From Strigamia acuminata (taxonomy: Eukaryota; Arthropoda; Chilopoda; Geophilomorpha; Linotaeniidae): a DNA stretch of 64,000 nt. This document shows positions 2,382 to 37,081 of the stretch, in pieces. Location of the stretch: NCBI GenBank assembly GCA_949358305.1, contig OX442314.1:49918581-49982580 (forward strand). The letters run 5' to 3'. Within the stretch, counting starts at the first letter, position 1. Each line of letters begins with the position of its first letter. The position numbers and the translations under genes were made by a program. The notes under the pieces are model-generated. The model did no database searches. It had not been told where the DNA came from and saw only the letters and a list, made by a program, of their open reading frames with translations.

Positions 2382-5276
2382 ATGGCGACGCCAATGCAAA
2401 TTGTAAAACGACAGCGAGGTCGACCAAGCACTCAGAAACGAGCAGCGACGGTTTTGCCGGCTCTCGAGCCTGAAATGCTTGTGGAGAAAATTATTTCCGA
2501 AGAAATAACACCAGTTCCAGATCCGAAACAACTTAAGGATGCTGAAAATGAAGTTGCTAGAGTATTAAGCGCTTCAAGTGCGAGTTCTAACGACCAAGAA
2601 CTCCCGCCACTTCCACTGGAAGAAGTGGAAAATACGTTACGTGAAATGGAAAGTGAATCGTCTCACGAATCACCTCCTCGCATGACCATGCTGGATGCTT
2701 TGAGAAATCAAGCACGCCAGGATGGCGCCCAAATAACGGACGACATGACGGTGGAAGAGATTCATCGCGCCATGATACGACTTCACACTGACCGAGCCGT
2801 TTCAAATTTACAATTTGAAATGGAACGAAAAGAAGCTGAGCTTCAACAACAAAAAGCGGAGGTTGAGCTCCAACATATGGAACTCAATCGACAAAATGAG
2901 GAATTTCTAGCCCAAAAAGCTAGAGAATACAGATTAAAAGGTGAAGTGGAAGATCTTTCTAAAATGAATACTAGAAATGAACTTTCAATTCGCTCACACC
3001 AAGAGGCGCGAAGACAGCTCGAGCTTACCAAAAGTAAGCTGGAGCAGAAAAATAAAGAACTGATTGATTTGGCAGACCACTACCAACGCAATCATAATCA
3101 ACTAGTGAGATATGCTGCTGAATTAGACACACGTGCTAAAACACAGCGTACTCGCGAAAGCAAAATAGCTAAGCGTGAAGACGAGATTTTCCACTCGCTG
3201 GATCAACCCAGTACGAGCGGACAAGTCAAGTCTAGCGGCCCTGCTAAGCGATTACAACCAGAAGAATCGCAAAATCAAATAAATGAGAATGAAATTCTCC
3301 GAGCTGATTTGTTGCGCGCTCAAGAAGAGCTTGCCGAAATGAAAGATCGTTTACAAGCAAGAAATTATACTGACCAATTGGTGCAACCAGAAATGGCTGC
3401 GCCAACTGTCCCTATTTTGACTCCCGAAACAATAACAATTTCTGTTGTTTCAGAGTTAAGTAGCCAATCTGGATTATCGAGTGATGACGACCAACGTTCG
3501 CGTCGTCGCCATCGCTCAAAAAGAAAACATCCTTCAGATTCTGAGGAACGGAGAGCTGATCGCAATCCGCTCCCTGGTAATCGAAACCCTATTTTTCACA
3601 ATAGTGACCGACTGTTGGGAATGGTAGACGATCGAAACAGACAACATGAAACAGGTATTCACGTTGCCCGAACGATACCACTGGCTCAGCAGCAAGATTC
3701 GTCGAAAAGAAGTCGACGAGACACCAATCCAGCACGCGAACCGCCGGACGGACATGAAAGCCCGCCAGGTGGGGGTCAGTATAGAAGAAATCCACCAGAT
3801 GGAGGAAATCCAGATGGACATGGAGATGGACCACCTGGAGGTGGACGTCGACCGCCAGACGATGACGGCGACCCACCCGACCCACCTGAAACACCACATT
3901 TTAACACGCCTTCAAATTCACAATCTGATTCAAGGTCGGATTCTGATGTGAATGCGCAACAAGAACGCGATAATCGACATCGATCTCATCGACGTCGACA
4001 TCGAGGCCATTCTTCTCGGCGTAATACGCATTATTACACTGCTGAAGAAATTGATCGATTATTAGCTGATCGTCGATCTTCTGATCGATCTGACGCTACT
4101 GCCGATAATGCTGACATTGCATTACGACAAAAAATTGCACAATACACTGCCAACAACTGGACTCACGATCTAGTTGATGAAAGGACTATTAGATGGGATC
4201 ACATCAAACCCGCTTTATTCGATGGAGAATGGGAAGCTGGATCCACTCTTTTAGATGAAGTTTTACGAATTTCAAGGTTGAATGGCATTGCATGTCACAC
4301 TGCTTTGAAAAGAGTAGTACCTAAAGCTCTTATAGACCGAGCTGAGAAATGGTTTTATTCTAAACAATTTCAAAATTGGAACCACTTTGTAGAAAAATTC
4401 ATGACTGAGTATGGAGAGTCAAGTGAAGACTTATTACAAATGTGGGATAATCTTTCTCAAAATAAAGGCGAAAGTCTTCGCTCTTATTTAAGAAGGACTG
4501 AGGATTTATTGGTCACTCTCCCTTATACGATGGGAGACGCAGCCATTGATCGTCAATTCCGACGTGGATTGACAGATTATTCAAAGAATGTTCTACTTTC
4601 TGTACGAGCACCTTATCCGGGTGGTTTCGCTGAATTAGCCAAATTTATGCGAGCCAATCAGATAAGGATTGACGAAAATTATAAAGCTTATCTACCAGCT
4701 GATGAAAAAGTTGCGTATGCTAAGCGACAGCAACGGAGAAAGGAGTTGGCAAAAGACACACGTTTTGCTAACACCCCTCTTTTGCAACCCCCAAAACGAG
4801 GAGATTTTTTGGCAGAAACTGCTAAAGAATCAAAAAAGAGATCGGATGGAAAAAATCCTCATCCAACCCCTAAAGCTCACTTAGCCGAAGTGACTGAAAT
4901 GGAGGCTGCTTCTGAACCAGAGAAATCTGACTCGGAACCAGAAAGTGAGGCTGCAGCTGCTTTATTAGCCCGTAATAACGCAGTAGCTCGAAAATTTAGA
5001 CCAAAGATGGCGCCTAAAAACGTTACTTTTGGTTCACCAAAGACAGACGCGCTCAGTAGATCGAAGTCGCCGACCCCTAAAAAGGACGAAGCCAAACGTT
5101 CAAGTTCGCCTTCGCCAAAAGTCGCGAAATCACCTGCTACTGACCCATGTAACATCTGCAAAAAATTGGGACATTGGGCTAAAGAATGTCCTGATAGGAA
5201 ATCGAGCAAAGACAAGATCATTGAGGAGTTCGAAAAATCGATGAAATCAATCGGCGAACTTCTAAAAAACTTGTAA
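2382..5276 (+). CDS. gag: gypsy-1 Gag polyprotein (964 aa)
   Basis: Structural protein of the retrotransposon particle. The ATG at 2382 lies 92 bp downstream of the LTR. Near the N terminus is RQRGRPSTQK (about residues 9-18), an AT-hook-like RGRP core. Residues about 130-250 are Glu/Gln/Arg/Lys-rich with heptad character, a probable coiled coil. A Pro/Gly/Asp-rich stretch (about 440-510) follows. Residues about 600-800 resemble the Retrotrans_gag capsid region. A CCHC zinc knuckle, CNICKKLGHWAKEC, sits near residue 925. At 964 aa it is much longer than typical gypsy Gag proteins (about 300-500 aa). The gypsy-2 Gag (993 aa) has the same layout. The ORF is intact. Confidence 0.93.
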   Translation: MATPMQIVKRQRGRPSTQKRAATVLPALEPEMLVEKIISEEITPVPDPKQLKDAENEVARVLSASSASSNDQELPPLPLEEVENTLREMESESSHESPPRMTMLDALRNQARQDGAQITDDMTVEEIHRAMIRLHTDRAVSNLQFEMERKEAELQQQKAEVELQHMELNRQNEEFLAQKAREYRLKGEVEDLSKMNTRNELSIRSHQEARRQLELTKSKLEQKNKELIDLADHYQRNHNQLVRYAAELDTRAKTQRTRESKIAKREDEIFHSLDQPSTSGQVKSSGPAKRLQPEESQNQINENEILRADLLRAQEELAEMKDRLQARNYTDQLVQPEMAAPTVPILTPETITISVVSELSSQSGLSSDDDQRSRRRHRSKRKHPSDSEERRADRNPLPGNRNPIFHNSDRLLGMVDDRNRQHETGIHVARTIPLAQQQDSSKRSRRDTNPAREPPDGHESPPGGGQYRRNPPDGGNPDGHGDGPPGGGRRPPDDDGDPPDPPETPHFNTPSNSQSDSRSDSDVNAQQERDNRHRSHRRRHRGHSSRRNTHYYTAEEIDRLLADRRSSDRSDATADNADIALRQKIAQYTANNWTHDLVDERTIRWDHIKPALFDGEWEAGSTLLDEVLRISRLNGIACHTALKRVVPKALIDRAEKWFYSKQFQNWNHFVEKFMTEYGESSEDLLQMWDNLSQNKGESLRSYLRRTEDLLVTLPYTMGDAAIDRQFRRGLTDYSKNVLLSVRAPYPGGFAELAKFMRANQIRIDENYKAYLPADEKVAYAKRQQRRKELAKDTRFANTPLLQPPKRGDFLAETAKESKKRSDGKNPHPTPKAHLAEVTEMEAASEPEKSDSEPESEAAAALLARNNAVARKFRPKMAPKNVTFGSPKTDALSRSKSPTPKKDEAKRSSSPSPKVAKSPATDPCNICKKLGHWAKECPDRKSSKDKIIEEFEKSMKSIGELLKNL
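5264..5270 (+). promoter_or_regulatory. -1 ribosomal frameshift slippery site, gag-pol
   Basis: The heptamer A AAA AAC lies in the gag frame two codons before the stop (TTG TAA). A -1 shift here enters exactly the pol frame, which is open from this point. The same heptamer followed by TTG TAG occurs at the gag end of gypsy-2. I did not model a downstream pseudoknot. Confidence 0.85.
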
Positions 5277-8200
5277 GCGCGCATCCAGACGGTCTAGTGG
5301 ATGCGACGCCTACCGCCTCGGAAAATGAACTAACACCATCTCAAATTTTAGATGAATTTTTAAATACACAGATTAAATTAGAATTAGAAAATAATTTAAT
5401 ATTTCCAAAAATTGATATTTCCAGTTTAAGGCTTGTGCTGCAAAATGAAAACATCACTGAGAAATTTTTTAAAGAAAAAGTTCAACAAATAAAAGTTGAT
5501 TGGGAATCTAAAATAAAAGATGCTGTTACTTTACTAGATGGAAAAGCTAGGCCCACACCTGAAATTGTTGAAAGGTCAGATAAAATTGATTTACCTGGTC
5601 TTGACGATTGTATTGAAAAATTAATGGCTACAACATTAGTCACTAATGATTTATTGGACGAATTACCATTGGATCCGCCGATAGAAATTAAGCCACCGCG
5701 ACGTTTTAGATGCAAGTACGCGGACATACCAAACAGCAATGATTTGCCGACAATTCGATTACAGACGGCAAACGGTATGATAACAGGGATGTTAGACTCT
5801 GGAGCTAATCGAAGCTTCATGGCCTACTCCGTAGTAATTTCGCTGAAACTGGAAGATGAAATTCGACCAATTGGACCGGATGTGAGAGTTACGACTGCTT
5901 CCGAAGACGTAGTCCCTGAAGGAACTCTCCTACTTTCTTTTGCGTGGACACACGGGATGTTAAGTCATCCATTCATAATTTTAAGAAATAAATATCCTAT
6001 TATTTTATTAGGATGTGATTTCATGAATCGACTCAACATACAACCAAATCCTAAGACCATGTCTTGGAATTTTGTTAAGTCTTTGAAAGAAGATTTACCT
6101 TTTGTTCCTCAAGCGATTCTTGATCGTTATCAAGAGTTCCTTGATCCACCCGAAGAAATAATGAGACGCGACTTTATTAAAGCAAATCACATGAAAGCTG
6201 GTTCCGCCACTGCATGTCAAGCTAAAGTTGCCGATGAAGAAAATATAGTACAAAGACTTGTTAGCGATGCTAATTTGTCAATGGAAAATAATTTAATGCT
6301 TGAAAAAGTATTAAAGAAACATGAAAAGATTTTATCACGCCGACCAGGTAGAACACACCTCGTTAGGCATGAAATTAAACTGGACACTAAAGTTCCAATT
6401 AGAGTTCCGTTTAAAAGCGTAAATCCACAAAAACGTGAAATTATCCGTCAAATCTGTCAAGATATGTTGGATAATGGGTACGTTGAACAAGCCACTGGAG
6501 ACTATGGGATGCGAATAGTTCTAGTGATGCGTCCGGATTGTGATCCGAGACTCTGCATTGATTTTAGACCACTCAATGCACATACATTATACGATCCTCC
6601 TCAAATGCCGAGCATTGAGGAAATCTTGCGAGAACTCGGAAGATTTGAATGGGTCACAACGATAGATTTGTCAAAAGGCTATTGGCAGATAGAGGTTCAT
6701 CCGAACGACCGTGCTAAAACTGCGTTTTGGAGCCCTTTGGGTCGACTACAATTTCGAGTCATGCCCTTTGGCCTCGTAAATGCGCCGTCAACTTTCCAAA
6801 AGTTGATAGAAAAGATTTTGGGGGACGCCTATCGAAAATTCGCATGGGCATACCTCGATGATATAATTATTATATCAAAAAATTTTGAAGAACACATGAT
6901 TCATCTGGAAGAAATTCTGAGTAAACTTGAAAATGCAAATCTTCATGTTCATCCAGAAAAATCGAAATTTGGCAGAAAAGAATTAACTTTTCTAGGTTAC
7001 AAGTTAAGTGTTCAAGGAGTTAGTGTCGACCCTAAAAAAGTCGCCGCTATTAAAGAAATGCCAGCTCCTTCAAATTTGTAAGAGTTGCAGAGATTTTTGG
7101 GAATGGTGAACTTTTTTCACCGATTACTTAAAAATCTGGCAGTCATGACAGAACCTCTACGTCCTTTACTCAAAAAGGATGTGGAATTTATTTGGTCAGA
7201 AATTCAGCAAGAAGCTTTTGATCAAATAAAAGATGCTTTAACGAATGCAGAGACGATGGCCATGCCTGATTTGACAGAACCATTTATTGTGCATACCGAC
7301 GCTAGCAGGAAAGGACTAGGCGCCGCGCTTATGCAAATGAGAAAAATCGATGATCAAAATATCGAAGTGCCTTGTGTTTATGCCAGCAGAAGTTTGCAAC
7401 CTGCTGAGATAAATTACAGCGCCACAGAATTAGAATGCCTTGCGGTAATCTGGGCATTACGTAAATTTCGACATTATTTGGAATTTACCACATTTATAGT
7501 AAGGACTGACCATCAAGCATTAAAATGGTTGATGCAGTTAGACGAACCTGCCTGAAGGTTGGCACGTTGGCAAATGGAGCTGATGCGCTATTCTTTCGAA
7601 ATACAATACATTAAAGGTCCACTAAATGTTTTAGCGGATGCTTTATCCAGATCACCGATTGACAAACCGGAAAATCCTGAAGATGATGGAGATAATGACG
7701 AATTATTATCTTACTGTCCATCACCTCAACGAAATTGGAAAATGGGAAAATTTCATGAACTTCCTGTCTCCACGCTGGAGGAAAAGGAAGATCACGAATT
7801 CGTCAACTACTGGACTAAAATTTATGACCCCTCTGAGGAATCAGATGACGTCATAAGAGCGCAAATTTCAAGGAAATTTCAAATTCCTTCGTCAAATGTT
7901 TTAATAAAAGCATTTGTCGCCAAAGTCGTAGAGCGTCTTGATTGTGAACCCCCCACAAGGGAAGACATAATCAAGGCCCAAAAAGAAGATAAAGTTTGCC
8001 AATTGATGCGTAATTTTTTAAATTGTAATCAATTTCCGCCTGACGTCACAACGCGACTCCAGAGGAAACAATATAGAAAACACGCAACCACCTTCTTAAT
8101 TGAAGATGACTTGTTAATGCAATTTCATCCCACAATGTCTGATGAATTGGGGGAGGATGGGAGAGCACTCAAAGTTTTTGTACCTCAGACATTGAAGTAT

Positions 8201-9745
8201 AAAATTATTTGGCTAATGCATGGCCACCCACTTTCTGGCCACCCAGGAATTGCAAGGACTCTTTATCGAGCACGCCGAATTTATACCTGGAAAGGCATGA
8301 AATCGGACATTACGAGATTCATTCGACATTGTGAGCGTTGCCAAGCTTGCAAACCTCGAACGAAAGGACAAATTGAAGCAGCGCAAATGGGTCCTTACAG
8401 CCCATTTGACTGTCTAAGTGTTGATTTGACCGGCCCGAAACCTCGGACGCGCAAAAATAACACACATATTTTAGTCATACTTGACGTGGCAACTCATTGG
8501 CCAGAATTATATCCAATGTGTAACCCCACTGCTGGAAAAGTAGCAAATTGTATTTATCACCTTTCCATGAGCATGGGATTCCCTCGTAAAATTATTTCTG
8601 ACAACGGCCCGCAATTTCGTGCCCAAGTCTTTAAAAAATTTTGTGAAAAGTTCAAGATGGTTCCAACACCAACTTCAACGTATCACCCACAAGCTAACCC
8701 GGTTGAAAGGATTAACCGTGACATCAAATATTTGGTTGCAATTTATTCATCTGTTCATTCCAAATGGGACGAATATTTGCGTGAATTTGCATTTAGTTTG
8801 AGAACTACGGTGACGAGAGGAAGAGACTTCTCTCCCGCATTTCTTAACTTTTTTCGCGAACTCAGAGTACCTTGGGATCCAAGAATACCTGAAGGAATTT
8901 TGGTCGTAGATCCAAAAAACCCACATTTATACGTGCAAAAGTTAGAAGCCGTTATCGCCGAAACATATCAACACATGATGTCACACGTGTTAGATTTGCG
9001 TAGACGAGTTAATCTTAAAAAAGAAGGTGAGAAGTTCTCCAATTTTAAATTAAACGATTTAGTTTGGAGAGATTCTCATGTTTTGTCGAGCGCTGCCCGC
9101 GGCATTGCAGCTGGCATCGCTGATAAAAGAACAGGACCTTATGTAATAACCAAAGTATTACAGGGAGGTTCGGTGGAATTGAGAAAGCTAGAAAATAACG
9201 AAATATTTCCAGCTGTCCATTCGTCAGAATTAACTCCGTATTTCCCGAGTTTCGATCAGGAAGTATGGTTAGAAGGCGAAGAAGTCGGTCAAAAGACTGA
9301 AAATATAATTAATACGTTAGATGACGATGAATTAAAGAAAATACCTGTCGATAATTCATCCAAACCACAAATGGAGTCAGACCTCGTGAATAACGACGTT
9401 GAACTTCGTGACAGTTTCAAAAAGCTTGAAATTGCTAAAAAATTAAATAAAAAGGTGTTTTTAGAAAAGAAACAAAAAACATCTGAAATAAAAGACTCAT
9501 CTGACTCAGTCTCCGATGACAATGAAGACGGCGATTTAAATACAATAAATCCCTCGCCGACAAAGAGATATAATCTTCGGACTCGTAAACCGAGAGGAAA
9601 AAACAACATGTGTCTTCTCCCCTCGATAACCTCGAGATCCAGGGATCAGCCGTATGACGTAAGGAGCAGTTCCCCAAGCCATACGCAAACCAATCAAACA
9701 ATAAGATTGGATGACGTCACTAACCGCGACGTTACCCAAACGTAA
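5270..9745 (+). pseudogene. pol: gypsy-1 Pol (PR-RT-RNaseH-INT) with two nonsense codons
   Basis: One frame runs through, interrupted by TAA at 7079-7081 and TGA at 7553-7555. Gypsy-2 has sense codons (Lys and Gly) at these sites, so both look like point mutations. Domains in order: aspartic protease (DSG in MLDSGANRSF), reverse transcriptase with YLDD (about 6858), RNase H (HTDAS, about 7290), integrase HHCC zinc domain (HGHPLSGHPG ... CERCQACK), integrase DDE core (VDLTGP, SDNGPQF, NPVERINRD) and a GPY/F module (RTGPYVI). The first stop separates RT from RNase H; the second falls near the end of RNase H. Without readthrough, no integrase is made from this copy. Confidence 0.93.
9689..9719 (+). 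promoter_or_regulatory. CCAAT and CRE-like boxes upstream of the gypsy-1 third gene
   Basis: A CCAAT box (about 9690), an inverted one (ATTGG, about 9706) and the palindrome TGACGTCA (9712-9719) lie within the last 60 bp of pol, about 150 bp upstream of the third gene's first splice donor. Gypsy-2 has two TGACGTCA boxes in the equivalent place. I infer an internal promoter. The boxes are seen; promoter activity is not shown. Confidence 0.5.
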
Positions 9746-9953
9746 CTTCCGGTATTTGAACTGATCACTTCGCGTCTGAGTTCACTTCGATCTCACACGT
9801 GTGTTAAGTGCTCATCTCCCAAAAAACCAAAAGAAACCGTTGGATTAATTCTCCCGAATCTTCAATTGTAAGTAGCTTTTTCTTTGGAATTTTCCAAGGA
9901 AAAACTAATAAATTAATTTTCGTTTTTCTTTTTCATTTGGATTAGTCGTTCAA

Positions 9954-12788
9954 ATGGAAGAAGGAGAACCGAAAGAAGGAAGCGAAGCCGGTGCCAACAG
10001 CCTCGAATTAGAAACGAATTCGACGCTGCTTGGTTCCGCAAATACTTCGAATACATCCGTGGATGTCACCGAAGAATCCGCCGAAGCGTCCGCCGAAGCT
10101 CAAGCCGCTCTGGCCGACGCTGCAGCCCGTTTGCCAGTCGCGCCGCCCCGACCACAACTTCGAGGAGGCCTATTCGCCGATCCAAACGGCGAAACTCGTG
10201 CACAGAGACACGACCGGGTAAATAATTTAAAATAAAATTACCTTTCAGTCATGAAAAGTAATTAAAAGTACATTTTCACTCGGAAAAAGCGAAAAGTTCG
10301 TTGGTAACGCCTTCGCAAGAAGGCGCCGCCATTATTATCATCAGATGGCGCTGTGTCTCGTTTTTGAGGCGTTGCTACGGTAACGCTCCAACATTGAAAC
10401 ATAGCCGTCGGAAACAACGTTTTTCACGATTTTTCAGATATTTTGAAAAATTTAATGAATCTAAACTGTCGAATGAAATCTCACCCGTGATTTTATTCAC
10501 TGAAAATTCGGAAATAATTATTTTACACGAAAAAATGGATTTTAATTATTTCTTCGAATATTTTACAGATCATCCAGCTTCGGGAGACGCATCTCGAACT
10601 GCACCCCGATGTTCCGACCGCTCCTGGAGTCTGGCGACATGCATTGCCGCCGGAAATCATCAAGTCCAAGGGGAGACTGACGTTTTGGGCGGCCCGACAC
10701 AAATTCTCCAAAGCCTTAAACAAGCGATGGGGAACGAAGTTTCGGATCGCCTATTTAATCGATGGATTTGGCCATCGCGACGCCCTCGAGTGGGCAATGA
10801 AGCGCGACACCTTCGGACCACTGCGAAACGTGTTGCTCGACTTCGCCTTCACAGTGATCGCTCAGGAAACGCGAGACCATCGCCGTTACTTCAACGCTCC
10901 TGCGTGGGAGCGTCGACAGATTTTGGAGGACATTTTCCAACGCTTGGACCAAACCAAAGCCGAGGTTGTGCGCCTCTACCACGAATCTTTCCGTGTAACA
11001 ACGGACGGAAAGAAACGTTGGGTGCCGACATGCCAATCGGAGATGCATCAACTAGCCATGGGCGGATGTTTCCATGCTGATTTCGTGCCAAACCCGTATC
11101 CAGAGCCTGAGCCCCGGGTACAGGTCGCTTCCACCATCCACGTGGTGCCACCGCGCTCCACGTCGAGGTCACGATCATCGAGATCGCCCTACAGTGGCCG
11201 TCGCTCCTCCCCAACACAGTCGTCGGGGGAAGGCGCCATTGGAGGGTTACCTCCACTCCAGAAGGCTCGTCATCGCTCACATCACCGACGTGAGTCGACG
11301 CCGCCAAAAAGACATTCGAAGTCCGTGTCGAGACCCACATCGCGAAGCCGACCTCGAGTACAATCGCGCCAATCTTCCACGAGGAGTTCATTCTCGTCGC
11401 GTGAAGAAAGGTCCACCGCTTCACAGCTTAGCGCTTCCTCCTCCGGCCGGATTGACTGGTCGGACGAGATAGCGAAAGAAGATCGACGCATCGCCGCATT
11501 GCAAGCCGGTCAAGGAGACGTCAACACCTCTTTGCCGTTCGCTTGCCGTCCAGTCACCAGCGACATGCGACCAGACCCATCGGTGCCCGTGCCACAAGTG
11601 ACATCGGTCATCCGTTTTGAGGGATACGTCTCTCAAGAACCATTTCCCGCACAGGAGTGCGCTGATCTCTGGAGGCGATTCTCATCGTTTCCCGAGACAG
11701 CCCAAGCGATGTACCTCGCGCATCTGGACGAATACCAACTCGCTCAGATCCGCGAAGGTGAGAAAGAATGGCAATGGCTTGCGCGAGAGCTTGCGTCGTG
11801 CAAGTCCGACAAGCAACTGCAACGGACGCTGCAGAAGATGAACAGGAAGTTGTCGGAGGGACTTCTTCGAATCCTGTTCCAAGGAGTCTTTCCCGACCCA
11901 CAGATTGCTCTGGCAGCCGCCACTCGATTGTGGACCGTGCCGTTAGGGCTTCCACGAGCCTTGCTGGACGATTGGGAGTCAGTTCGCCCCGATCCTCCAA
12001 CGATGCTCGCCGAATTGACGCAACAAGCCGAGGCGACTGGCGAAACTCCGGCTGGATCCGCCATTCGACTACGGCAAGAATGGGCTACACTGAAGCAGCA
12101 GCGCGCAACGGAACGAGCCACCGCCCGTCCCGCTGGCGCACCACCGTCATCCGCAGCTCCACTCCACGCTGCCATCACGGCAACGTCGAGTGTTTCCCGT
12201 GCAACCGAGGCACCGAGTTGCAACATCTCGTCTCCAATGGAGTGGCTCGACAGCGACGATCGCGAGTTCGTCGTGCCTGTGGCCAGCGGTGCCAGACCAA
12301 AGACGCGCACCCCGGCTTCGCGCAGATCCAGATCCCTCTCGATCTGCAAAAAGTCGCCGCCACCGCCGCCTCCTCCAAAGGATTCGCCGCCGAGAGATAG
12401 GGGATCAAAAATGGCCACCTACCTCACCGCCTATCAACGTTTGCGCTCATTATACGCCTTTTGCTACATAACGATCGCAACGAAAACGATTCTCCAGAAC
12501 AGCGAGGATTTATGCAACCGAGTCCTCGCGTGGCTGGAAAACCACATCAAGGAACAACAGCCGTGGATCCTGCATCAACGCCTGGTGTTCGCCCGAATTA
12601 CGCCTCAAGACCCGCAGGAGTATTTCGAGATGGGTTTTGGACGAAGGGATGGTGTAGACCGCATAAAGCAAGTGTGGCTCCACATCAACCCTGGCTTCCG
12701 GTCAGGACCAAACGCCCGCCGACCTTTGTGCACCGTCACAGAGCACAAAGATCCAAACGATCATTCAACGGACATGTTGCCTAAATAA
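9954..12788 (+). CDS. gypsy-1 third gene (env position), spliced, product unknown, ~827 aa
   Basis: Inferred structure: a 5'UTR intron at 9868-9945 (TTGTAAGT ... GATTAG), coding exon 1 at 9954-10217 (88 codons, acidic, Ala/Glu-rich), a phase-0 intron at 10218-10568 (CGG|gtaaat ... acag|ATC), and exon 2 at 10569-12788. The long frame has no ATG near its 5' end, which supports splicing. The product has an N-terminal globular region, a Ser/Arg-rich stretch with SRSRSSRS-like runs, a helical middle domain, a run of seven prolines and a conserved C-terminal region of about 110 residues (LHINPGFRSGPNARR). I see no signal peptide, transmembrane segment, furin-like site or Cys-rich ectodomain, so it does not look like an envelope. 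Gypsy-2 has a homologue with the same exon layout. I do not recognise the family. Confidence 0.75.
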
Positions 12789-12954: not shown

Positions 12955-14042
12955 TGTGGTGACCTCAAATATTCCTATTTGAGTGCGCACCATATTTCCA
13001 AATTGTCTTATAAACATATTCAACAAGCATATATGTTTTGTTTCAATGTAAATTGAAATAAAACATACATTAATAAAATATAAAACAAGACACAATATTA
13101 CCCAAATAATATTGTGTTTTGCAGCAAGTTTTGGCCCAGCAACAGCGTCAACCAATCGCGCTGCAGCGTGCATTGCTTTGATGATGCTGCTAGGCGTGTG
13201 CCTGGGCGGAGCATCCCTTCCCCTCGCGCGTGCCCGGCTCAATTGTTGCACACGACCCGAAGGCGGCCGTGTGTGATCTTTGTGCAACTCGTCATCTGCG
13301 CAGCTTTTCTGAGCAGATTTAGAAGTGAGCTAAACGGTTTTGGCCCACTCTTCCCGCACTCTTGATTCCACCTCCAAACTGTTCACAACCGTGTCAAACT
13401 TCTGCCAAAACTGCAAAGTGTGATCTGTGATTCTTGGACGAATTGAGTTTCATTGCTGGTCTGTACCAACTGTACAGAATAGCGCCTTCCTGCTTGAATT
13501 ACTACGTGTAATTTAAGCCATTTCTGTGTGTGAATTGACATTGAGCTTGCTCTGTCAATTTGAAGGCTTTGTGTCGAGTTTAACTCCACAAAGCGATCTG
13601 TGTTAAGACGGATTGTTACGTCGAGCTTGCTCCGTAATAATCAAACCGCTGTGTGCAAGACGTATTCTCGTGTTGAGCTTGCTCCGCGAGGATTTTTAGT
13701 ATATTCAGCAACGTATTTTAGCGTTGAGTTTACTCCGCTAAAATCCCGCGCTCACACGACGCCATTGACGCCATTTTGGAGCCAACGGTCAACTGTGAGT
13801 GTCCAAGTACAAAGAGAAGCCAGATCGACCCAGTCATTACATTATTATTATTATTTCCCCTTTGCATATATCCAGTGTATTTAGAACGATTAAAACAATC
13901 TAATTTTTCCTTTTACTCTCCGTGTAAAAATCATTCCCCTAGACAACCATTTAGCCACAGAGTAGAAGTCCTGTACGGCATCTCACCGACGATTGCTTAT
14001 TGAATTTATATAATTTAATAAGTAAAAACCCGGATCGCCGCA
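12955..14042 (+). repeat. gypsy-1 3' LTR (1088 bp)
   Basis: Complete LTR from TGTGGTGACC to GATCGCCGCA (TG...CA). It carries the stem-loop array at 13460-13744 and a strong hairpin at 13033-13066 (ATGTTTT-x-TTTCAAT paired with ATTGAAA-x-AAAACAT around a 4-nt loop). The truncated 5' LTR begins inside the 3' end of that hairpin. AATAAA signals lie near 13056 and 13071. The target duplication cannot be checked because the 5' end is lost. Confidence 0.96.
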
Positions 14043-14139: not shown

Positions 14140-15058
14140 GCAGAGAAGACAAGAACTGCTGTCAAGTTAGTTTAACATGCAATGTATCAAATCGGTGTCT
14201 ATGTACCAAAGATTATCTCCTAACTGGCAGATATTGCGTGATACAGGATGGTAATTTGTAACAATTATGCTGTTTTTAGTTTTTTTTAATTTTCATATGT
14301 ATTTATTTATTTGTAGTTAGTACACCACTCATAACATAATTTTTATTCACCATAAAATGACTGTAAATTTATCTTTAAAAACAATTTATTGTCTTTACTA
14401 CAGACAAAATTCGCAGGCTGTTGGAACATGCATGGAACACTCCGAATGTAGTCAGATTTATTCAAGGTGTTTCAATAACGAATGCAGTTGCATTGAAGGT
14501 TACTACGCACTGGATAATGTGCGTGTATTGAATACCGGTAAGTTACAATATAGAAAATATAAGTTTGATACATTCTGAATAAGCAATGAACATTTTCAGG
14601 AACGATAGGCAACAGATGTGAAATGCTAAGGGAGATGCAAGGGGCATTTTACATATTGCAATGAAAACAAGACGTGCCAGTGCATTACTGGGACCATACA
14701 GGCGAGGCAAGGCTGTAACTCTGAAGGTGAGGAGCCAACTTTTAAGTTATTGAAGGAAATATATGGAATTATTTATAAACTTATTTTTTTTTATACCAGA
14801 AAGGATAGGAAGTAGGAGATTTTGTTCCAGAAACATGGACGTATTACTCACTTGCTTGAAAAAAACATCGATAACGGAGTTATTCAATGTAGTGGAGCAA
14901 TTCATACAAAAAGTTTCAGGTAAAACTTTTTTCTCAGTCTTTTTTTTTCCGTCAGCTCGTGTCATTGACCAGATAATGATAAAGATTTATTTCATTTTAT
15001 ATGGTGAAGACAACTGTGAATATACCGAAGAGTGTGGCCACAAACCGGATTCACTTCT
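14140..15058 (+). pseudogene. Cysteine-rich EB/EGF-like multi-exon gene, partial and probably decayed
   Basis: Several exon-like blocks carry the spacing of EB or EGF-like modules (C-x-C ... GY ... C). Block 1 (about 14146-14251) contains CNVSNRCLCTKDYLL and ends at a donor, ATG|gtaatt. Block 2 (about 14403-14537) contains CFNNECSCIEGYY and ends at CCG|gtaagt. Block 3 (about 14600-14727) contains CNENKTCQCITG and ends at AAG|gtgagg. Block 4 (about 14803-14919) ends at CAG|gtaaaa. Donors are all phase 1, as in module-encoding exons. Frames do not join cleanly at blocks 2 and 3, so I call it a pseudogene or badly degraded copy. Block 4 is also present in the left duplication at about 81-197. 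Such proteins are usually secreted. Confidence 0.45.
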
Positions 15059-16032
15059 TTATTCTTAAAGTGTTCATTAAATTAAGAAAATTTAAATTGA
15101 GAAAAGCTTAGTTATTATTGTTTTACTGTATAAGTCTTAGATTAAGCATCCGCGATCTTAGTTTTATATTAGCGAAACCGGGATTGCGACACTTGAGGGC
15201 CTGTTAGATTTGAACCAACTATAAAAATTTATTATTGTGTACAATTTTTACGGGACTCTCATCTTTCTTACTGTTTCTTTCTTCCATTTTTGTAAAAAAT
15301 GCCGAGAAGAAAGAGCCACATCCCAGTGCGAAAATACCGACAAGCAGGGGCGGATCTAGCTTTTCGAGGGCCCGGGGCTTTGAGGTTTTTTCGGGCCCCT
15401 TTATCGAAATTTGTAATAGCGACCTTTCTCCTTTTTTCTTTTCTTTAGCGACCTTTCTTTTTCTTTTTTTTTTTAGTACATTGCCTTGCGTCTTGGGGGC
15501 TCAAGCCCCATTAGCCCTACGCTAGATCCGCCCCTGCCGACAAGACAGTCAGCCACGTGGAGGTAGAGAGTTAGATTTTACATCCCCTTAAGAAATCAAA
15601 CATTGCAAACAGTGCAGAAAACCACGTGAACAAGTCATGTGAACAAATTTAACAAATCTAAAAATAAAAATTCCAATGTAGAGTAAACAATTTTTTTAAA
15701 AAAAAGAAAATAGGTTTTTAACATAACTGCCAATTAAAATTTGTCTCGTCATTTGTGTTCTTATTGCTGCACCCAGTCTGGTCACTTAAAAGCTCATTTA
15801 TTGACACACACTTCTGTCTGTAACAGTAGCCTCAAGACACATTTATTAACACACACCAGAGAACGACCATTCAAGTGTGATTTATGTTCTTATTGCTCTA
15901 CCCAGTCGTCGCACTTGAAATCTCATTTGTTGACCCACGCCGGAGACAACAAAAACTTGAGTTCTTATTTTATAAAAATACCCCTAGACACATTTTACAG
16001 GCAACAGAGTTTAAGGCCTATAAACGGCATTT
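14723..16032. repeat. Right copy of the tandem duplication
   Basis: Same content as 1-1310 at an offset of 14722. It follows on from cysteine-rich exons at 14140-14722 and continues past 16032 into the rest of a decayed LTR 3' end (to about 16095). This copy therefore looks like the original context, and the left copy looks like the end of the preceding duplicated unit. Confidence 0.9.
15345..15536. mobile_element. hAT-type MITE (right copy)
   Basis: Second copy of the 623-814 MITE with the same flanking CCGACAAG repeats. It was carried along by the tandem duplication and is not an independent insertion. A truncated, inverted relative lies at about 60053-60183. Confidence 0.93.
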
Positions 16033-16095
16033 CGATTGCGGTTTGGTTGATAAAAGGTAAGTATTTATCGACCAAATACCTGGATTGCAACACAG
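15973..16095 (+). repeat. Relic of a gypsy-type LTR 3' end
   Basis: CCCCTAGACA, CAGAGTTTAAG, ACGGCATTTC and the terminal CTGGATTGCAACA follow the same order as the last ~120 bp of the gypsy-1 LTR. Related relics lie at 45718-45775 and 59620-59735; the first part is also at 1251-1310. Confidence 0.6.
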
Positions 16096-19904: not shown

Positions 19905-21203
19905 ATGTCGCGAATTTTTATCGGTGGATTAGCGCGCGACGTTTGCAACAGAGACATTGAGGATTTCTTGAAGGGATACGAAATCCACGAAATTTATCTT
20001 CGAATTGGCTTTGCTTTCGTGCAATTGGCCAATAATCAAGACGCCGACGAAGCTGTTTCCCGCTTGAATGGCCGCAACTTGCTTGGTCAACCGGCATTGG
20101 TGCAATACCCCCGAAGTCGTGGAAACGAAAGAGAGAATCCACGCAATTTCGATTCCAGAGGAACTTATGATTCTAATCGTAGCGAGGGATCACGAAATTA
20201 TAATTCTAATCGTTGCGAAGAAAAATCACGAAATTATAATTCAAATCGTGGCGATGGGCAACGCAAATTCGATTCGGGAAGTAGTCGTGGTTCGGGCCGG
20301 GAGTTACGCAATTTCGATTCGAGGGATGGACGTGGATTTGACGATTCGAACCGTGGCGGACGAGGATTCGGCGAGAATTCAACGAATTATAATTCTAATC
20401 GTGGCGAGTGTTCACGGAGTTACGACTCTAATCGTGGCGATGGGCAACGCAGATTCGAATCGAGGGATGGACGTGAATCGGGCCAGGAGACGAGTAATTC
20501 TGGTCGTGATTTTCGGGAGAGATTCAGAGTTCACGTGGAGAACTTGGCGGACAGTATCGGTTGGCGAGACTTGAAGGTTTACATGTCGCAAGCTGCGGAA
20601 GTTCTCTACGCGGATGCGCATAAGATTCGGAAGAACGAAGGCGTGGTTGAGTTCGCGACCGAGTGGGATCGGGGAAAGGCGATCGAAAGATTCCACAATA
20701 CCGAATTGCATGGCCGCTATGTGAGATTAATCAGACCGGGTGTGCCTAAGAACCGTGACGATTCGAGACCCGTCAACAATTTCACTCAAACGTCGCACAG
20801 ATCCAGGTCTCCGATGAAATCGCGACCACGTGTTAAATCGTATCGCCAGAGGTCGCCCGTTAAATCGAGATCTCCAAAGAAACGACCTAGACTAGAAGAA
20901 CCTAGTGAATCGGATGTAGTAAGCAAACGACCTAGACTAGATTCAATCTGTGAATCTACTCAATCTGACGTAGTTCCTGAAGAAAGCACGGCAGGTGCAG
21001 TGCAGGAGAAACTCGTCACTGGTGATGATAAATTTGAGAACAGCCAAAAATTTGACGAAGGAATCCACGATGACGAAAAGTTGCGCGACAGCAACGACGA
21101 TGATAAGAAGTTGCACGACAGCAACGATGACGACGAAGAATTGTATGATGGGATGGGCGATGAGGACAAATTGAACGAGAGCTACTTAGACGGTTTGGAA
21201 TGA
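19905..21203 (+). CDS. SR-like splicing factor with two RRMs (432 aa), intronless
   Basis: RRM1 (residues 1-70) has RNP2 IFIGGL and RNP1 GFAFVQL. A spacer of Gly/Arg/Asn repeats (YNSNRGDGQRKFDS-like) follows. RRM2 (about 206-280) carries GWRDLKVYM, close to the SWQDLKD signature of SR proteins with a pseudo-RRM, and NEGVVEFAT. An RS region (SHRSRSPMKSR, about 300-330) and an acidic Asp-rich tail end the protein. The architecture is that of SRSF4/5/6 (fly B52), nuclear proteins binding exonic enhancers. The long repeat spacer and acidic tail are unusual. The single-exon structure suggests a retrogene or divergent paralogue. AATAAA at 21288 is a plausible polyadenylation signal. Confidence 0.85.
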   Translation: MSRIFIGGLARDVCNRDIEDFLKGYEIHEIYLRIGFAFVQLANNQDADEAVSRLNGRNLLGQPALVQYPRSRGNERENPRNFDSRGTYDSNRSEGSRNYNSNRCEEKSRNYNSNRGDGQRKFDSGSSRGSGRELRNFDSRDGRGFDDSNRGGRGFGENSTNYNSNRGECSRSYDSNRGDGQRRFESRDGRESGQETSNSGRDFRERFRVHVENLADSIGWRDLKVYMSQAAEVLYADAHKIRKNEGVVEFATEWDRGKAIERFHNTELHGRYVRLIRPGVPKNRDDSRPVNNFTQTSHRSRSPMKSRPRVKSYRQRSPVKSRSPKKRPRLEEPSESDVVSKRPRLDSICESTQSDVVPEESTAGAVQEKLVTGDDKFENSQKFDEGIHDDEKLRDSNDDDKKLHDSNDDDEELYDGMGDEDKLNESYLDGLE

Positions 21204-21299: not shown

Positions 21300-22236
21300 A
21301 TTGAAAATTTATTCAAATCTCTCATTGTATTCAATATTACGAATTAATTTTTCTAAAATAATTAAGTACAAAGTAACTCGATCATTTAACTTGAAATTTA
21401 AAACATCAGATCCAAAAGAATGCAAGATGAAGTGTTGTGTTCTCAAGCTTGTATTTATTACAGATTTCGGTAGTAGTGCGCAAGAACTCCAGCCAGCTGT
21501 ATACTCTTGTCAACTCCAAATTAAACCTCACTCCCATTGGCTTAGTCTAATTATTACTAACTGTAGACTGTTTTTTTTTTTTCATTCATAAAATTAAGTT
21601 TTGTGCTGCGAGGGGCTATGACTAAGTGGGAAATTATTTTTAGGAATTTTTGATTAGTGGAAACATGATCTCCTGATCCCCCTCTATTAGTATACACCCC
21701 TTATTTCTGTGTAACATGAATTCTGAAACACCCTGTATGTTGAAATCCTTAGCAGGGCCTTATTGCCCAGTGCTGAAAGAAAATTCGGTGCCCAGCCTTG
21801 TGTCTTTCAGCATCACCTCAAATTTGAATGACAATAAAATGGTAAAAAGATTTTACAATGTAAAACCAAAGTATTCCAACTATTGATCTACAGTCTGGGA
21901 TGCACAAAACGAAATTAAGTGTAAAGAAACCCCTAAAATCTGAGGAGTATTTTGTTGGGAATTTTTGCCGTTGCATCGGTATCGGTGTCCATACAATTAA
22001 CGCATCTACACGGTAAGATTGAGGATGATACACCGGTAATACGTATTAAATACGTATAATGGCAACAACCTAAAGTTTTCTGCAGTCCTCCTTCTATCAG
22101 TAAGATATTAAATCCCCCTGACTCATCTTTCACTTATTAATAGCATTCCATGCAGGTAATCTCTAGTTCAAACAGGATTTCAATGAGAAGATCGAAGATA
22201 GTACTTGACAGAATTGCAAATTTTTAATGCAAAAGG
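21300..22236. other. Intergenic AT-rich sequence with a Tc1-like scrap
   Basis: No gene is supported. Positions 21716-21806 match the Tc1-like transposase fragments at 46076-46180 and about 54331-54360 (for example AGGGCCTTATTGCCCAGTGC). The AAGG at 22233-22236 is the left target duplication of gypsy-2. Confidence 0.6.
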
Positions 22237-23198
22237 TGCTGCGATCCGGGTTTTTTCACACTTAATTTCTATTAAATCAAGTGGAAACCGCAGGTGAATG
22301 CTTATAAAGACTTTCAATCGGCGGCCGTAAATTATCTAGGGTTAATTTAATTAGAAAGAAATAAAGAGACAGTTTTATTAGATAAAAATCACACTTTATA
22401 TTCTTTATTCGGTTTTATACAATGACTAGTAATGAAAGAAAGTAATACGAAGCGACAATGTCGCGAAATGAATGTAAGAACAATGGAAATGCTTGCAACG
22501 ACTGTTGCAAGCTAAAAGCGTCAGAAATGGCGCTTAACAACACGAATGTTGTTACGAAGGCAAATGTCCTCGTTAAACGACTCACGAACGATGGTCCTGG
22601 CGACGATGGGTCTCGTAAGTCCTTCCGTAACTCGTACGACGGCTCGCTGGCGGTGGTTCACGGTCACGGGCGTCCGACTGGTGTTCGATGGCGGTGGCAA
22701 CAGTTCGCGCTGCTGCGACGGCGATGGTTCACGTCACTTCGGGAAACTTCTTCTTCTCGATAGCTTAATTTAGCAACGGCTAAATCAAGCTGAATTGCTG
22801 GCTTTGTACGTTTCTTGTACAAAGATAGCAGGTGAAACTAATCGTGTCACGGTCCACTGTCAATACGTATTGTCGGAGCAAATATCGCAGTGATGTTGTG
22901 GGTTGTGATGTTGTGATTAGAGTCCCGATTGAAGCTAGGGCGCGAGCCCGGCACGCTTCAATATTGCGCAGATAATCTGCGCAATTAGCTGAAACTGATG
23001 CAACAAAGGATTATTGCCCAATATTGCACCATAACGGTTAATTACCGTTTTCACCCCAGCTAACCTGAGGTGATATGTGCCTAGGGAAGTTTCCTCCCCT
23101 TCGTCACATGATTCGACTTGGCGTGTGCCACAGTCAAATTAATTAGAAGACACAATTAATTTATCTTCTAAGTTGGTGAACTATTTGAGATCACCACA
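22237..23198 (-). repeat. gypsy-2 3' LTR (962 bp) rich in hairpins
   Basis: TG...CA on the minus strand. Perfect or near-perfect inverted repeats include 22452-22464, 22491-22512 (GCTTGCAAC arms), 22535-22554, 22763-22790 (12-bp arms with one wobble), 22802-22824, 22928-22962, 22963-22985 (ATTGCGCAGAT arms) and 23033-23049. The two LTRs differ mainly inside the 22928-22962 hairpin loop. Confidence 0.95.
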
Positions 23199-23250: not shown

Positions 23251-25898
23251 TTAAGATTCGTCCATGCTCTGACCCTTCTCAGGCATTGACGGGCGCATCA
23301 TGTCCGTGGCGTTGTTCCGCGGATCTGATCGCTCGTTAACGATACACAGGTCGCGACCTGCGTTTGGTCCGGAGACCATTCCAGGGTTGACGTGAAGCCA
23401 AACCTGGAGGATCCTTGCCGAATTGGCTCGGTTGAAAAACCCCATGGCCGCAAACTCTATCGGATCCATCGGCGCCAATCGCGCCTTCAGGAGCCGGTCA
23501 TGGAGAACTGACGGTGGGCTCAACACCCGGATGTGGTCTTCGAGCCACATAAACACTTGCCTTGCCAACTTGTGATTGTTGCTCAGCAAGGTTCGGGTAT
23601 CTGGCGTCAGATAGAAATGCGGATACAACCGCATTAGAGTCTTGAACGCGGACTCTTTCTTCATTGGCTTGACCGTTGACTCCGGCTTGGCTGGCGGCGG
23701 CGGAGGCGGCGGACGTGAGTCTTCAGCCCCGACGTCGTCGAATTGGCTCGGCGAGCCAGCAAAAACCAACGCGGGTGCGGAGGTTGGCGAGGGCAAATTC
23801 CCTCGTCCTTGGGCTCGACCAGCACCTGGGAGCCAGCGGGGCATAATCACCGCTGGAACTCCGGACGGAGTTTGAGAACTTCGCGTGTTCTCCGGCCAAA
23901 ACGAACATCCAGGCGCTTCTTGAGCCGACTGGAAAGCAGCCAACGATGCGGCCGCTGTGGCGCAGGTAGCGGGAGGCGGAATGCTTCGAACCCGCTGCGC
24001 CGTGGCCTTCGCAAATGACCACTCGGTCCTCAACCGAACGGCGGCCTCTTCTTCGGTCTCGCCGTTTGCTACGACCTGCTTAGTCAGCTCTGCCAAGATC
24101 GTAGGCGGGTCGAGCCTGACGTGATACCACAGCTCGACTTTTTCCTCCGACAGGCCCATTGGAGCGGTCCACAGGTAGGTAATGGCCGCCAACGCCTGTC
24201 CTGGCGAAGGAAGAACACCAGGGTACAACACCCTGGTCATCCCCGGAATCAGCTGACGCTGAAAGTCCATCAGACGGGAATCATCAATGGATTTGATGTC
24301 GGAGAGTTCTAGCCTTTCAGCTAGTCTCTGCCAATCCTTCTGCGATTCGGTGATCTGGGCGCTTTGGTAGGCGTCCAGCTTCTTGAGCACTTCTTGCTGC
24401 GCTCTAATGGGCTGCTGCTCGTAGCAAGTCCATTGTGGTCCGAATGACTCACTGAAAAATGGCCGGAGCTGTAGGCTACTAACTCCAGCCGGCAAGCGAG
24501 GAACATATCCATGTTCGGGCAAGCGGCTAGCGTGTCCAGGCACGGGCACGCTAAAGTCGGGAGAGATATCACTGACAACACGACGCATTGCGTATGGAGT
24601 GGCGGGGTTGTCCACTTTGTAAGTGGACGCCGTTCGGCCACTGCGTGCAGACGTGAAGGTCGCGTCCGATTCAACGCTCTGGGAGGACGAGGAATAAGAC
24701 GATTCCGGAGTTCGTCCTCTTTGCGACGGTGGACGATTTGGCGGTACGTCCGTGGTGTAGGGGCGCGATCGCTTCTGCCGTTCCTCTCGATCGCGGCTGG
24801 ATTCTCGTCGCTGTGGTCCAGTGCTTAATCCAGCGGGAGGGAGTCGTCCCACCCTCAAATCCTCGTCTTGCGGCGCTGGATTGATCGGCGTTGGGGCCGG
24901 AATTTCGTCTGCTGGGTAGAACGGAAGAGCAAGACGCGCTTGCTCGTCTGCCTCGAGTTGACGAGTCAGTTGTCGATTTTCATCGACCAGGAGCTGCGCG
25001 GCGGCAGCTCGGAGCGCTTTTGACGGGAAAAACCCCGGAAAGTCATTAAAGCACCCGGCGAGCGCCAATTGATGGAGCTCGGTTTGTGTGGCGGGAAATT
25101 GCGGCTTCCCGTCACGAACGGACTTTCGGTAACGTTGTACGACCTCGCGTTGAGTCGTCTTGAGGTTTTTCCTCAACTGGGTAAGGGCGCCGTAATTAAT
25201 GCGGCCGCCCTTGATCACCTTTCGGCGATTGTAACGCTCTCGCGGCGTTACTGGCCACTGGTTGTGCAGCAAGTCGGAAGCGACTTGTCCTGGAGCGCTG
25301 TCTTCTAAGGTCCAGGTGACTTCATCGACTCCCGGGACGCGAAGTCGGTCGATAAATCGGCCCTTGGCTCCGAGGCCTTGGAGGGAGGCCCCTGAAAACT
25401 CGTGACGCAATTTCCACCACGTTATCCGATCCGTCTTAAGTCTTCGGATCTTTTCGGGCAGCGCCGCCCGAAATATCAGCGGATGCTGTGTCGGTACGTG
25501 ATCCGGGAGCGCGTGAGGCGTCTCCCGATCTCTCTCAATCTAGAGGGAAAAAATAAATAAAAGAGATTAATTTATTTAATAATTTGCAAACAATTTCTCG
25601 TTTGTAATTATTTAAGCTCGACGCTTGTGGCTGTGAACCACTAAGGGATGTCGGTTGCTATGGCAACTCCCTTCGCACATGCTTGAAGCACGTGACTTTT
25701 ATAGCCGCCATTTTTAACTTGTAGCGGCTCGTGTTTGATGTCACAAAACTTGACTTTGCTCAAATTTCGTGACTGAAACACTTGGTAAAAATATTTTTAA
25801 TAAATTACCCGTTGTTGGAGCGTTAATTGGACGGCTCCGTTTGCCTCGTCCATCGGCATTTCATCATCTGGATGAAGATTGACTTCGTCGTCCGCCAT
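23251..25898 (-). CDS. gypsy-2 third gene (env position), spliced, product unknown, ~792 aa
   Basis: Exon 1 runs from ATG at 25898 to 25809 (30 codons, acidic). A phase-0 intron covers 25808-25540 (CGG|gtaatt ... ctctag|ATT) and exon 2 runs 25539-23251. A 5'UTR intron lies at 26002-25937 (ACT|gtaagt ... ttcaag). Exon positions, phases and even the terminal CGG codon of exon 1 match gypsy-1. Shared protein blocks include YVPRLP/YVSQEP, SVPVP near the centre, RLDPPTILAEL/RPDPPTMLAEL, an Ala/Glu-rich region with LRTEW/LRQEW, a proline run, and a C-terminal WLHVNPGMVSGPNAGRDLC. No signal peptide or membrane segment is visible. Function is unknown. It may be a nuclear or particle-associated accessory protein. 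Confidence 0.78.
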
Positions 25899-26124
25899 TC
25901 GCTTGCGTTTCCTCGATAGATCGGGAATTCTTTCGTCTTGAAAGAAATATTATTGCAATTAAATGCCAATAAATTAATTTTTCATTGAGAAAAATTACTT
26001 ACAGTTTGAGAAATCGCTGAAAACTGTGGTTCGATATACTATCCGACGCATCCACTTTGAAAACTCTAGAAAAAGTGGCTAAGTTTGTTGATTGGAGAAA
26101 CGAACTTGTCTTAGAGACGCTGTA

Positions 26125-26188
26125 TGACGTCATTCATTATAACGCCTTATAGACGTCGTCATCGAATAGCGGACTATTGATGACGTCA
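26125..26188 (-). promoter_or_regulatory. Paired CRE-like boxes upstream of the gypsy-2 third gene
   Basis: Two TGACGTCA palindromes (26125-26132 and 26181-26188) lie between the pol stop and the 5'UTR donor of the third gene, in the same relative place as the gypsy-1 box. CREB/ATF-type bZIP factors bind such sites. I infer an internal promoter for a separate third-gene transcript. Confidence 0.5.
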
Positions 26189-30061: not shown

Positions 30062-30538
30062 TAAAGCGATTTCCTGGCCAAAACATCGGTTAGAAAGGAG
30101 TTGACGAGTGTCTAAACAGGTGCGCGACACCGACATGCGTGCGCCATGTTTAATATCACATAAAAGTGTACACGCTTCGAGGCTAACAACTGCACTCGAG
30201 AAAAGATAGGATAAATCATTGTTGGATTTCAATGATTTGTCCTTTACATTATAAAATAAAAGCAATGACATTCATAATCGATAACTAAGCAATAATAACA
30301 ATACAGGACTCGCTCTTTTGAGCAGACGATGTTATCAGCGCATGCTGCTAAATGGAAACGTTCAACCGCGGTACAGAACCAGCATTAATAAGAATCGAGA
30401 TCGATTGAACGCGACATCGAGACATTAAATAGCAGCACATTCATTACACATATCCGGAAAGTGTGTAATGTAAATATTCACAAACTATACAATATGGCGA
30501 CAAACAATCAAACACAATATTTCCACCACAACTCAATA
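30062..30538 (-). repeat. copia 3' LTR (477 bp)
   Basis: Matches 36605-37081 at every position I compared. On the minus strand it follows a short polypurine tract (AAAGGGGGATA, complement of about 30539-30549). It reads out into gypsy-2 pol in frame. Confidence 0.95.
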
Positions 30539-35403: not shown

Positions 35404-35889
35404 CGCGACGACACAAGGAAAATGCACAATAATAATTAGTTGTGCACGGAGAAAACACAATTTCGGAATTTATTCCGCACAAACACTTCACAGGAGCACT
35501 TAATCACACAATGCACAATTGTCTCTAGTCCCAAAAACCAAAAAGGAAGGCGAAAATACAGTTTCAACCCGGGGAATCTCAATAAGTGAGATTGGAAAAC
35601 CTTGACTGGCAATCCACCAACTCTTCCGTCCGACCTCCTGGGGTCGCGGGATGGTTGGGGGCCCTGGATAAGCCCAGCCAAGAATACAGTGCTACGTGCC
35701 CGACTGGACGTAGGGTAGCACCGAATCTAACAAGGGACCAACAACAAAAACTTAAAACTATACAGAGTTTCACGAAAGTATGCAAATAAATCAAAACAGT
35801 CTAGATGTGAAGTTGGCCAATTACAGGATCCTTGCGCCGTAATCGGTTCCCACGGTGTGTTCAACGTCGGCTTCACGTGTCGAATTAAC

Positions 35890-36604: not shown

Positions 36605-37081
36605 TAAAGCGATTTCCTGGCCAAAACATCGGTTAGAAAGGAGTTGACGAGTGTCTAAACAGGTGCGCGACACCGACATGCGTGCGCCATGTTTAATATC
36701 ACATAAAAGTGTACACGCTTCGAGGCTAACAACTGCACTCGAGAAAAGATAGGATAAATCATTGTTGGATTTCAATGATTTGTCCTTTACATTATAAAAT
36801 AAAAGCAATGACATTCATAATCGATAACTAAGCAATAATAACAATACAGGACTCGCTCTTTTGAGCAGACGATGTTATCAGCGCATGCTGCTAAATGGAA
36901 ACGTTCAACCGCGGTACAGAACCAGCATTAATAAGAATCGAGATCGATTGAACGCGACATCGAGACATTAAATAGCAGCACATTCATTACACATATCCGG
37001 AAAGTGTGTAATGTAAATATTCACAAACTATACAATATGGCGACAAACAATCAAACACAATATTTCCACCACAACTCAATA
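36605..37081 (-). repeat. copia 5' LTR (477 bp)
   Basis: Promoter-bearing LTR of the nested copia element, matching 30062-30538. Its insertion interrupts gypsy-2 Pol upstream of the protease active site. Confidence 0.95.

Follow-up and report, generated by a model that had tools for sequence, protein, structure and literature searches.

Two Ty3/gypsy elements with a third gene downstream of pol

We analysed a stretch of 64,000 nucleotides from the centipede Strigamia acuminata (contig OX442314.1; "the window" throughout), which holds two LTR retrotransposons, element 1 on the forward strand and element 2 on the reverse strand. On contig C157 of the assembly, COX1 is open under the invertebrate mitochondrial code, which marks the host as an invertebrate, apparently arthropod-like. 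Each element carries an additional gene, here called gene 3, between pol and the 3' LTR. The carrier elements comprise the following features.

1311-2289, forward: 5' LTR of element 1, its first ~110 bp missing, 99.7% identical to 13064-14042 (blastn self-comparison)
2292-2309, forward: primer binding site (PBS) of element 1, TGGGGGCCCGTCCGGGAT, adjoining the LTR end
2382-5276, forward: gag of element 1, 964 aa, matching PF03732 (5e-9) and PF00098 (2e-4), both above the cut-off
5297-9745, forward: pol of element 1, a single frame with two in-frame stops (ORFs 5297-7081, 7085-7555 and 7559-9745)
12955-14042, forward: 3' LTR of element 1, starting near 12955 (TGTGGTGA) after the polypurine tract
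22236-23198, reverse: 3' LTR of element 2 (LTR self-comparison)
26240-30271, reverse: pol of element 2, 1343 aa, open; reverse transcriptase, RNase H and integrase above the cut-off, protease (PF13975) below it
37497-40478, reverse: gag of element 2, 993 aa, 42% identical to element 1 gag over 436 aligned columns
41215-42175, reverse: 5' LTR of element 2, 98.9% identical to 22236-23198

Elements 1 and 2 belong to one Ty3/gypsy lineage: they have LTRs, a PBS, a gag with a CCHC motif and the domain order protease, reverse transcriptase, RNase H and integrase (pol domains were scanned in element 2). The PBS-like sequence after the 5' LTR, which we take to be tRNA-Pro-like, is the same in both, and their pol genes share 68% DNA identity over 5780-9346. 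The zinc knuckle scores above the Pfam cut-off in element 1 gag and just below it in element 2 gag. LTR identity is 99.7% within element 1 and 98.9% within element 2, so both elements inserted fairly recently.

Several neighbouring features deserve mention in their own right. Identical 1311-base stretches lie on both sides of element 1 (1-1311 and 14723-16033), and the truncation of its 5' LTR coincides exactly with the end of the first of them; the duplicated flanks reflect either a local duplication or an assembly artefact. Element 2 is split by a nested Copia element, the two LTRs of which (30062-30538 and 36605-37081) are identical. In the 1634-aa ORF of this Copia element (30556-35460, reverse), the integrase and reverse transcriptase regions lie on either side of a methyl-CpG-binding domain (PF01429, E 1.8e-10, residues 1050-1105), possibly a chromatin-targeting module. 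A diverged repeat, with related DNA near 49440-51290 and 58340-59290, holds a 432-aa ORF (19905-21203) that matches the RRM model (PF00076, 9.8e-17).

Gene 3 has the same organization in both elements.

9868-9945, forward: intron 1 of element 1, in the 5'UTR, GTAAGT...GATTAG
9954-10217, forward: exon 1 coding sequence of element 1, acidic, from the ATG at 9954 to CGG|GT
10218-10568, forward: intron 2 of element 1, phase 0
10569-12788, forward: exon 2 of element 1, 739 aa plus stop
10569-11090, forward: N-terminal conserved region of exon 2, without a Pfam match
11091-11564, forward: arginine/serine-rich (RS) linker of exon 2, defined by composition
11565-12092, forward: middle conserved region of exon 2
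12360-12380, forward: seven-proline run of exon 2, from sequence and alignment with element 2
12411-12785, forward: C-terminal domain with WLHxNPGxxSGPNAxR, 49% identical to element 2
25937-26002, reverse: intron 1 of element 2
25809-25898, reverse: exon 1 coding sequence of element 2, from the ATG at 25898 to CGG|GT
25540-25808, reverse: intron 2 of element 2
23251-25539, reverse: exon 2 of element 2 (ORF)

The first-pass annotation of this DNA had described this structure (a 5'UTR intron, an acidic exon 1, a phase-0 intron and a long exon), and it proved exact to the base in both elements, as did the predicted products of 827 aa (element 1) and 792 aa (element 2). The exon 1 products carry net charges of -9 and -7, respectively. 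Arginine/serine-rich and proline-rich linkers connect three conserved regions (N-terminal, middle and C-terminal), and a global alignment places both the proline run and the WLHxNPGxxSGPNAxR stretch in each product. BLASTP aligns the exon 2 products over 494 columns at 31% identity (E 7e-46), and the global alignment gives 37%, so that, as had been claimed, the gene has been retained in two families despite considerable divergence. The reported absence of a signal peptide and of membrane segments is supported in both products by hydropathy, judged solely by Kyte-Doolittle averaging: the 19-residue peak is 1.09 in element 1 and 0.88 in element 2, and the N termini are hydrophilic. The products contain 10 and 5 cysteines, respectively, per ~800 aa.

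Genomic copies that have lost the introns

Splicing of gene 3, at first a prediction, can be read from the genome itself. Copies from which the introns have been exactly removed exist for both introns and in both families, and because of these copies we regard both introns as really spliced. Among aligned members of the element-1 family, L056 lacks both introns, L063 lacks intron 1 only and L064 lacks intron 2 only, all exactly. A whole-genome pattern search for this family found the spliced intron 2 junction at nine loci (reversed control, 0) and the unspliced intron 2 acceptor at 84; the spliced intron 1 junction occurs at three loci genome-wide. For the element-2 family, spliced junctions were found at three loci for intron 2 and at one for intron 1 (exact, at C1:48167513). 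In addition, open frames of 821-827 aa, consistent in length with fused exons, occur in five of the 150 element-2 rows that were scored; at two of the five loci the search had found the spliced intron 2 junction.

The losses appear to have recurred. In a tree of 47 distinct gene 3 sequences, taken without inspection of branch support, a Fitch count gives four changes for the four spliced tips; L056 sits on a long branch. Locus L036 was dropped from this tree as the same as L030 in the aligned columns. Since the spliced L036 is identical to the unspliced L030 over ~1.85 kb of these columns, its intron 2 loss is also separate. Thus five of the nine intron 2 losses in the element-1 family can be placed, and by their sequences all five look independent. 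Exact and repeated loss of a GT-AG interval is the outcome expected from reverse transcription of spliced RNA. Introns should be lost with each copying of a spliced RNA, yet both families keep both of them, which implies that unspliced RNA dominates packaging or that intron-free copies fare worse.

Locus L056 (G000:C1:46097200-46101400) has also lost most of the RS linker in frame, with the N-terminal, middle and C-terminal regions still joined. We considered a third intron for this gap (~11114-11636) and rejected it in favour of an in-frame deletion, as there is no GT-AG at the breakpoints, short microhomology is present and the frame stays open.

Constraint on gene 3 and the search for relatives

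Selection on gene 3 had been called probable, and within the element-1 family dN/dS is indeed well below 1, also with CpG-prone sites masked. Our sample consisted of the window copy and 27 of the 34 loci L039-L072 (28 sequences, 378 pairs), after exclusion of L047 (interrupted), L057 (first part missing), L067-L069 (degenerate, and left out of the counts as well) and L071-L072 (other family). Pooled dN/dS was 0.33 for exon 1, 0.12 for the N-terminal region, 0.20 for the RS linker, 0.14 for the middle region, 0.26 for the proline-rich linker and 0.08 for the C-terminal domain, compared with 0.36 for the end of pol in the same 28 sequences; as the pairs have branches in common, these figures are descriptive and not independent tests. 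Read in its two wrong frames, exon 2 of these sequences yields dN/dS-like ratios of 1.5 and 2.1. At non-CpG sites the zero-fold/fourfold ratio is 0.10-0.33 for gene 3 and 0.17 for the end of pol (27 sequences, L061 also being excluded). An overlapping second frame below the C-terminal domain (12416-12785, exon 2 frame +2) is open in many copies; given its dN/dS-like ratio of 2.1, it is probably a passenger.

Exon 2 is open from start to end in 18 of the 28 element-1-family sequences, L056 included, and not open in the other 10 (scored by anchor motifs). In the element-2 family, counting by hand gave 126 of 150 scored rows whose open frame is no shorter than 700 aa, and in two of these 126 the match contains a TAG; the 150 were drawn from 1150 first-look candidates, and the list is biased to well-kept copies. 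Judging from these sequences, gene 3 is almost certainly a genuine protein-coding gene that has two spliceosomal introns, is under purifying selection and is kept in two well-diverged families. The 1150 first-look candidate places for the element-2-family C-terminal domain include many scored rows with identical scores, and the family looks like a recent, large expansion. In one of its copies (G000:C1:26202644-26203030) the gene 3 frame stays open for 1271 aa, far longer than in the rest.

If gene 3 is not an envelope, as the first-pass annotation held, then protein, profile and solved-structure searches should return neither an envelope nor a gag, and none was found. Eight members had no Pfam match above the cut-off, including the GDSL and DEDDy enzyme domains known from bdelloid third ORFs. 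There was no credible relative in PHROGs, and neither a credible relative nor an envelope among the sequences of solved structures (PDB). A scan of IMG/VR returned 158 pattern matches, none of them confirmed. No credible relative emerged among 5.8 billion proteins from public genomes and metagenomes, a result that does not extend to absence from other animals. Here the queries were exon 2 of element 1, the eight-member alignment and the C-terminal domain alone; for the first two, the best 8000 candidates by common words were scored.

Individual candidates were discarded on inspection. A Bcl-2-like match of the C-terminal domain (PF00452, E 0.013-0.1) lies below the cut-off and occurs in one of eight members (element 1); we treat it as chance. 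The PDB entry 7rdr (3e-11) is a tandem repeat protein in which no single stretch passes. A gag duplicate is rejected, as gene 3 has no Retrotrans_gag match and resembles neither element's gag in BLASTP or profile comparisons. An envelope is likewise rejected, with no membrane segment by hydropathy and no envelope family match; having no signal peptide or membrane anchor by hydropathy, the product is not expected to act as a retroviral envelope. The predicted protein thus appears neither envelope-like in its build nor gag-like in its sequence.

Expression, proposed role and known systems

Candidate control sequences lie just upstream of intron 1 and within intron 2.

9655-9662, forward: CRE-like site TGACGTAA, element 1; TGACGTMA here in 26 of 28 aligned sequences
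9712-9719, forward: CRE-like site TGACGTCA, element 1, 57 bp downstream of the first
10371-10384, forward: X-box-like GTTGCTACGGTAAC, intron 2 of element 1, kept in 26 of 26 aligned intron-bearing sequences
25654-25667, reverse: X-box-like GTTGCCATAGCAAC, intron 2 of element 2 (motif match)
26125-26132, no strand assigned: second CRE-like site of element 2, 56 bp from the first
26181-26188, no strand assigned: CRE-like site TGACGTCA, a palindrome, element 2

The TGACGTMA pairs occupy a matching place in the two elements, with spacings of 57 and 56 bp. At 9712-9719, TGACGTCA is present in 21 of the 28 aligned sequences, TGACGTCG in six and neither in one. The window contains six occurrences of TGACGTCA, against 0.92 expected, and no TGACGTMA site in its LTRs; both the CRE-like and the X-box-like motifs were picked after the sequences had been seen. 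Because TGACGTCA also occurs at 7846 and 8041 (element 1 pol) and at 47325 (outside the elements), the motif alone is not specific. The X-box-like sequences GTTGCTACGGTAAC and GTTGCCATAGCAAC mark a motif found in the window only in intron 2 of the two elements, one of the two sites being counted on both strands.

Among copies of the element-1 family, intron 2 diverges less than fourfold sites. With CpG-prone sites removed (and L056, L061 and L064 also excluded) its divergence is 4.8%, about half the 10.7% of exon 2 fourfold sites; the case for a special conservation of intron 2 is weakened by this removal. Homology of intron 2 between the families is not significant over the whole intron, the score being reached by 40 of 200 shuffles. 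A short block, TTTCAGTCAYGAAA, stands ~25-31 bases into intron 2 (10243-10256 in element 1) in elements 1 and 2, L066 and L072 but not in L071, and from its sequence looks like a second 3' splice site.

From their position, the paired CRE-like sites suggest that gene 3 may form its own transcription unit and likely has its own promoter; a control element in intron 2 would be a guess. It is also quite possible, if a little hard to reconcile with those pairs at the expected promoter place in both elements, that gene 3 lacks its own promoter and depends on translation of a spliced or bicistronic LTR-driven RNA. This alternative concerns expression only and is compatible with any function. In its favour, pol joins exon 0 without a break in all three of the intron-free copies that were read (L056, 8295-9867; L063, 9040-9867; L064, 8792-10217). 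The pol sequence must therefore have been part of the spliced RNAs or of template-switching products, and an internal promoter is not required. However, translation below a long gag-pol RNA needs a further mechanism, and we saw by eye no consensus splice donor between the LTR end and the gag ATG of element 1, which leaves a splice from the leader to gene 3 without an obvious start.

As to function, we favour a soluble accessory factor, regulatory or part of an RNP. Such a factor, made from its own transcription unit with paired CRE-like promoter sites followed by a 5'UTR intron, would act in trans in the cell, most likely in the nucleus or in an RNP. The arginine/serine-rich linker and the conserved N-terminal, middle and C-terminal regions could then support expression, processing or packaging of the element's RNA, a use closer to that of Tas-type regulators in complex retroviruses than to that of Env. 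The in-frame absence of most of the RS linker from L056 speaks against such a factor. Taken whole, from the facts of the gene to an accessory factor acting in trans, we offer this reading tentatively, as one that could well prove wrong in its mechanism.

Other roles compete with it. The product of gene 3 could be structural or associated with the particle, serving as a second nucleoprotein or a capsid-like component whose basic RS linker binds RNA. A long, multidomain product with a basic low-complexity linker between conserved blocks would suit this role, as would purifying selection similar to or stronger than that at the end of pol, but we think it unlikely, given the lack of similarity to the elements' own gag (BLASTP, profile) and of any gag, capsid, zinc-knuckle or other Pfam match above the cut-off. 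Viral accessory genes that counter host silencing are known, and gene 3, as a conserved accessory orphan of a highly amplified family, might similarly act against piRNA, chromatin or RNA-surveillance pathways; with no pointer to this in the sequence, we rate it as rather improbable. Insect errantivirus env is made from spliced RNA, and gene 3 shares that trait and the env position, yet an envelope gene rewritten with loss of its membrane parts is very improbable in view of the low hydropathy peaks and few cysteines given above, the absence of a Pfam match above the cut-off, the introns within the gene's own UTR and coding sequence, and the constraint on every protein region.

A bolder extension of the accessory-factor reading is that the lineage evolved regulation like that of complex retroviruses without an envelope. 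Gene 3 would be an independent unit under CREB/RFX-type host factors, its introns would be kept for their control elements despite repeated reverse transcription of spliced RNAs, and its product would be a new trans-acting class that licenses expression of the element. We consider this doubtful; if true, it would place complex-retrovirus-like regulation in an envelope-less invertebrate Ty3/gypsy element. Apart from any mechanism, gene 3 matters as a third gene that by all indications is real, spliced and selected, not envelope-like, and an orphan in every sequence search made. With candidate places numbering more than a thousand in a single genome, and with intron-free copies occurring naturally, it makes a usable study system, suited to two questions: the role of non-envelope accessory genes and the survival of introns in an element that passes through RNA.

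Among known systems, the env of Drosophila gypsy (an errantivirus) also lies downstream of pol and is spliced. It encodes a membrane glycoprotein, whereas hydropathy shows neither a membrane nor a signal segment in the gene 3 product. The foamy virus Tas gene is likewise an accessory gene beyond pol. Foamy viruses also have Env, unlike the elements described here, and the likeness to Tas drawn here is one of place and promoter. Tas has an internal promoter (PMC8670036, PMC4929722), and that of gene 3 is a predicted one. In an ostracod gypsy element, pol ends in an extension that is possibly what remains of env (PMC7998251). Plant Retand elements, as described in PMC11963269, have a long stretch from pol to the 3' LTR that holds a conserved accessory ORF, for which a regulatory role is proposed; by that description the TRP28 ORFs of Retand are antisense, which sets them apart from gene 3, sense and spliced.

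The closest parallel comes from bdelloid rotifers. The third gene of an LTR retrotransposon is usually taken for env from its position, as PMC5408684 points out, and the bdelloid LTR retrotransposons TelKA, Juno and Vesta covered there have a family-specific ORF downstream of pol that is often not an envelope. These third ORFs are typically separate transcriptional units with spliced messages, and encode GDSL esterases, DEDDy exonucleases, or coiled-coil, TM or paramyxovirus-like env proteins (same source). The word "intron" does not occur in the main text of that paper. Gene 3 resembles the bdelloid ORF3 in its place downstream of pol and in being, as many of them are, no envelope, and it fits the description of a non-envelope ORF3: an intact, conserved ORF between pol and the 3' LTR that is not Env. 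It differs in having no Pfam match above the cut-off and in the introns within its own 5'UTR and coding sequence. Our searches of open-licence papers returned none whose title or abstract opening describes gene 3. The earlier statement that no gypsy accessory gene of this architecture is known stands with one qualification. Non-envelope third genes are already known as a category in LTR retrotransposons (PMC5408684, PMC11963269), and what is new is the protein family of gene 3 and its architecture.
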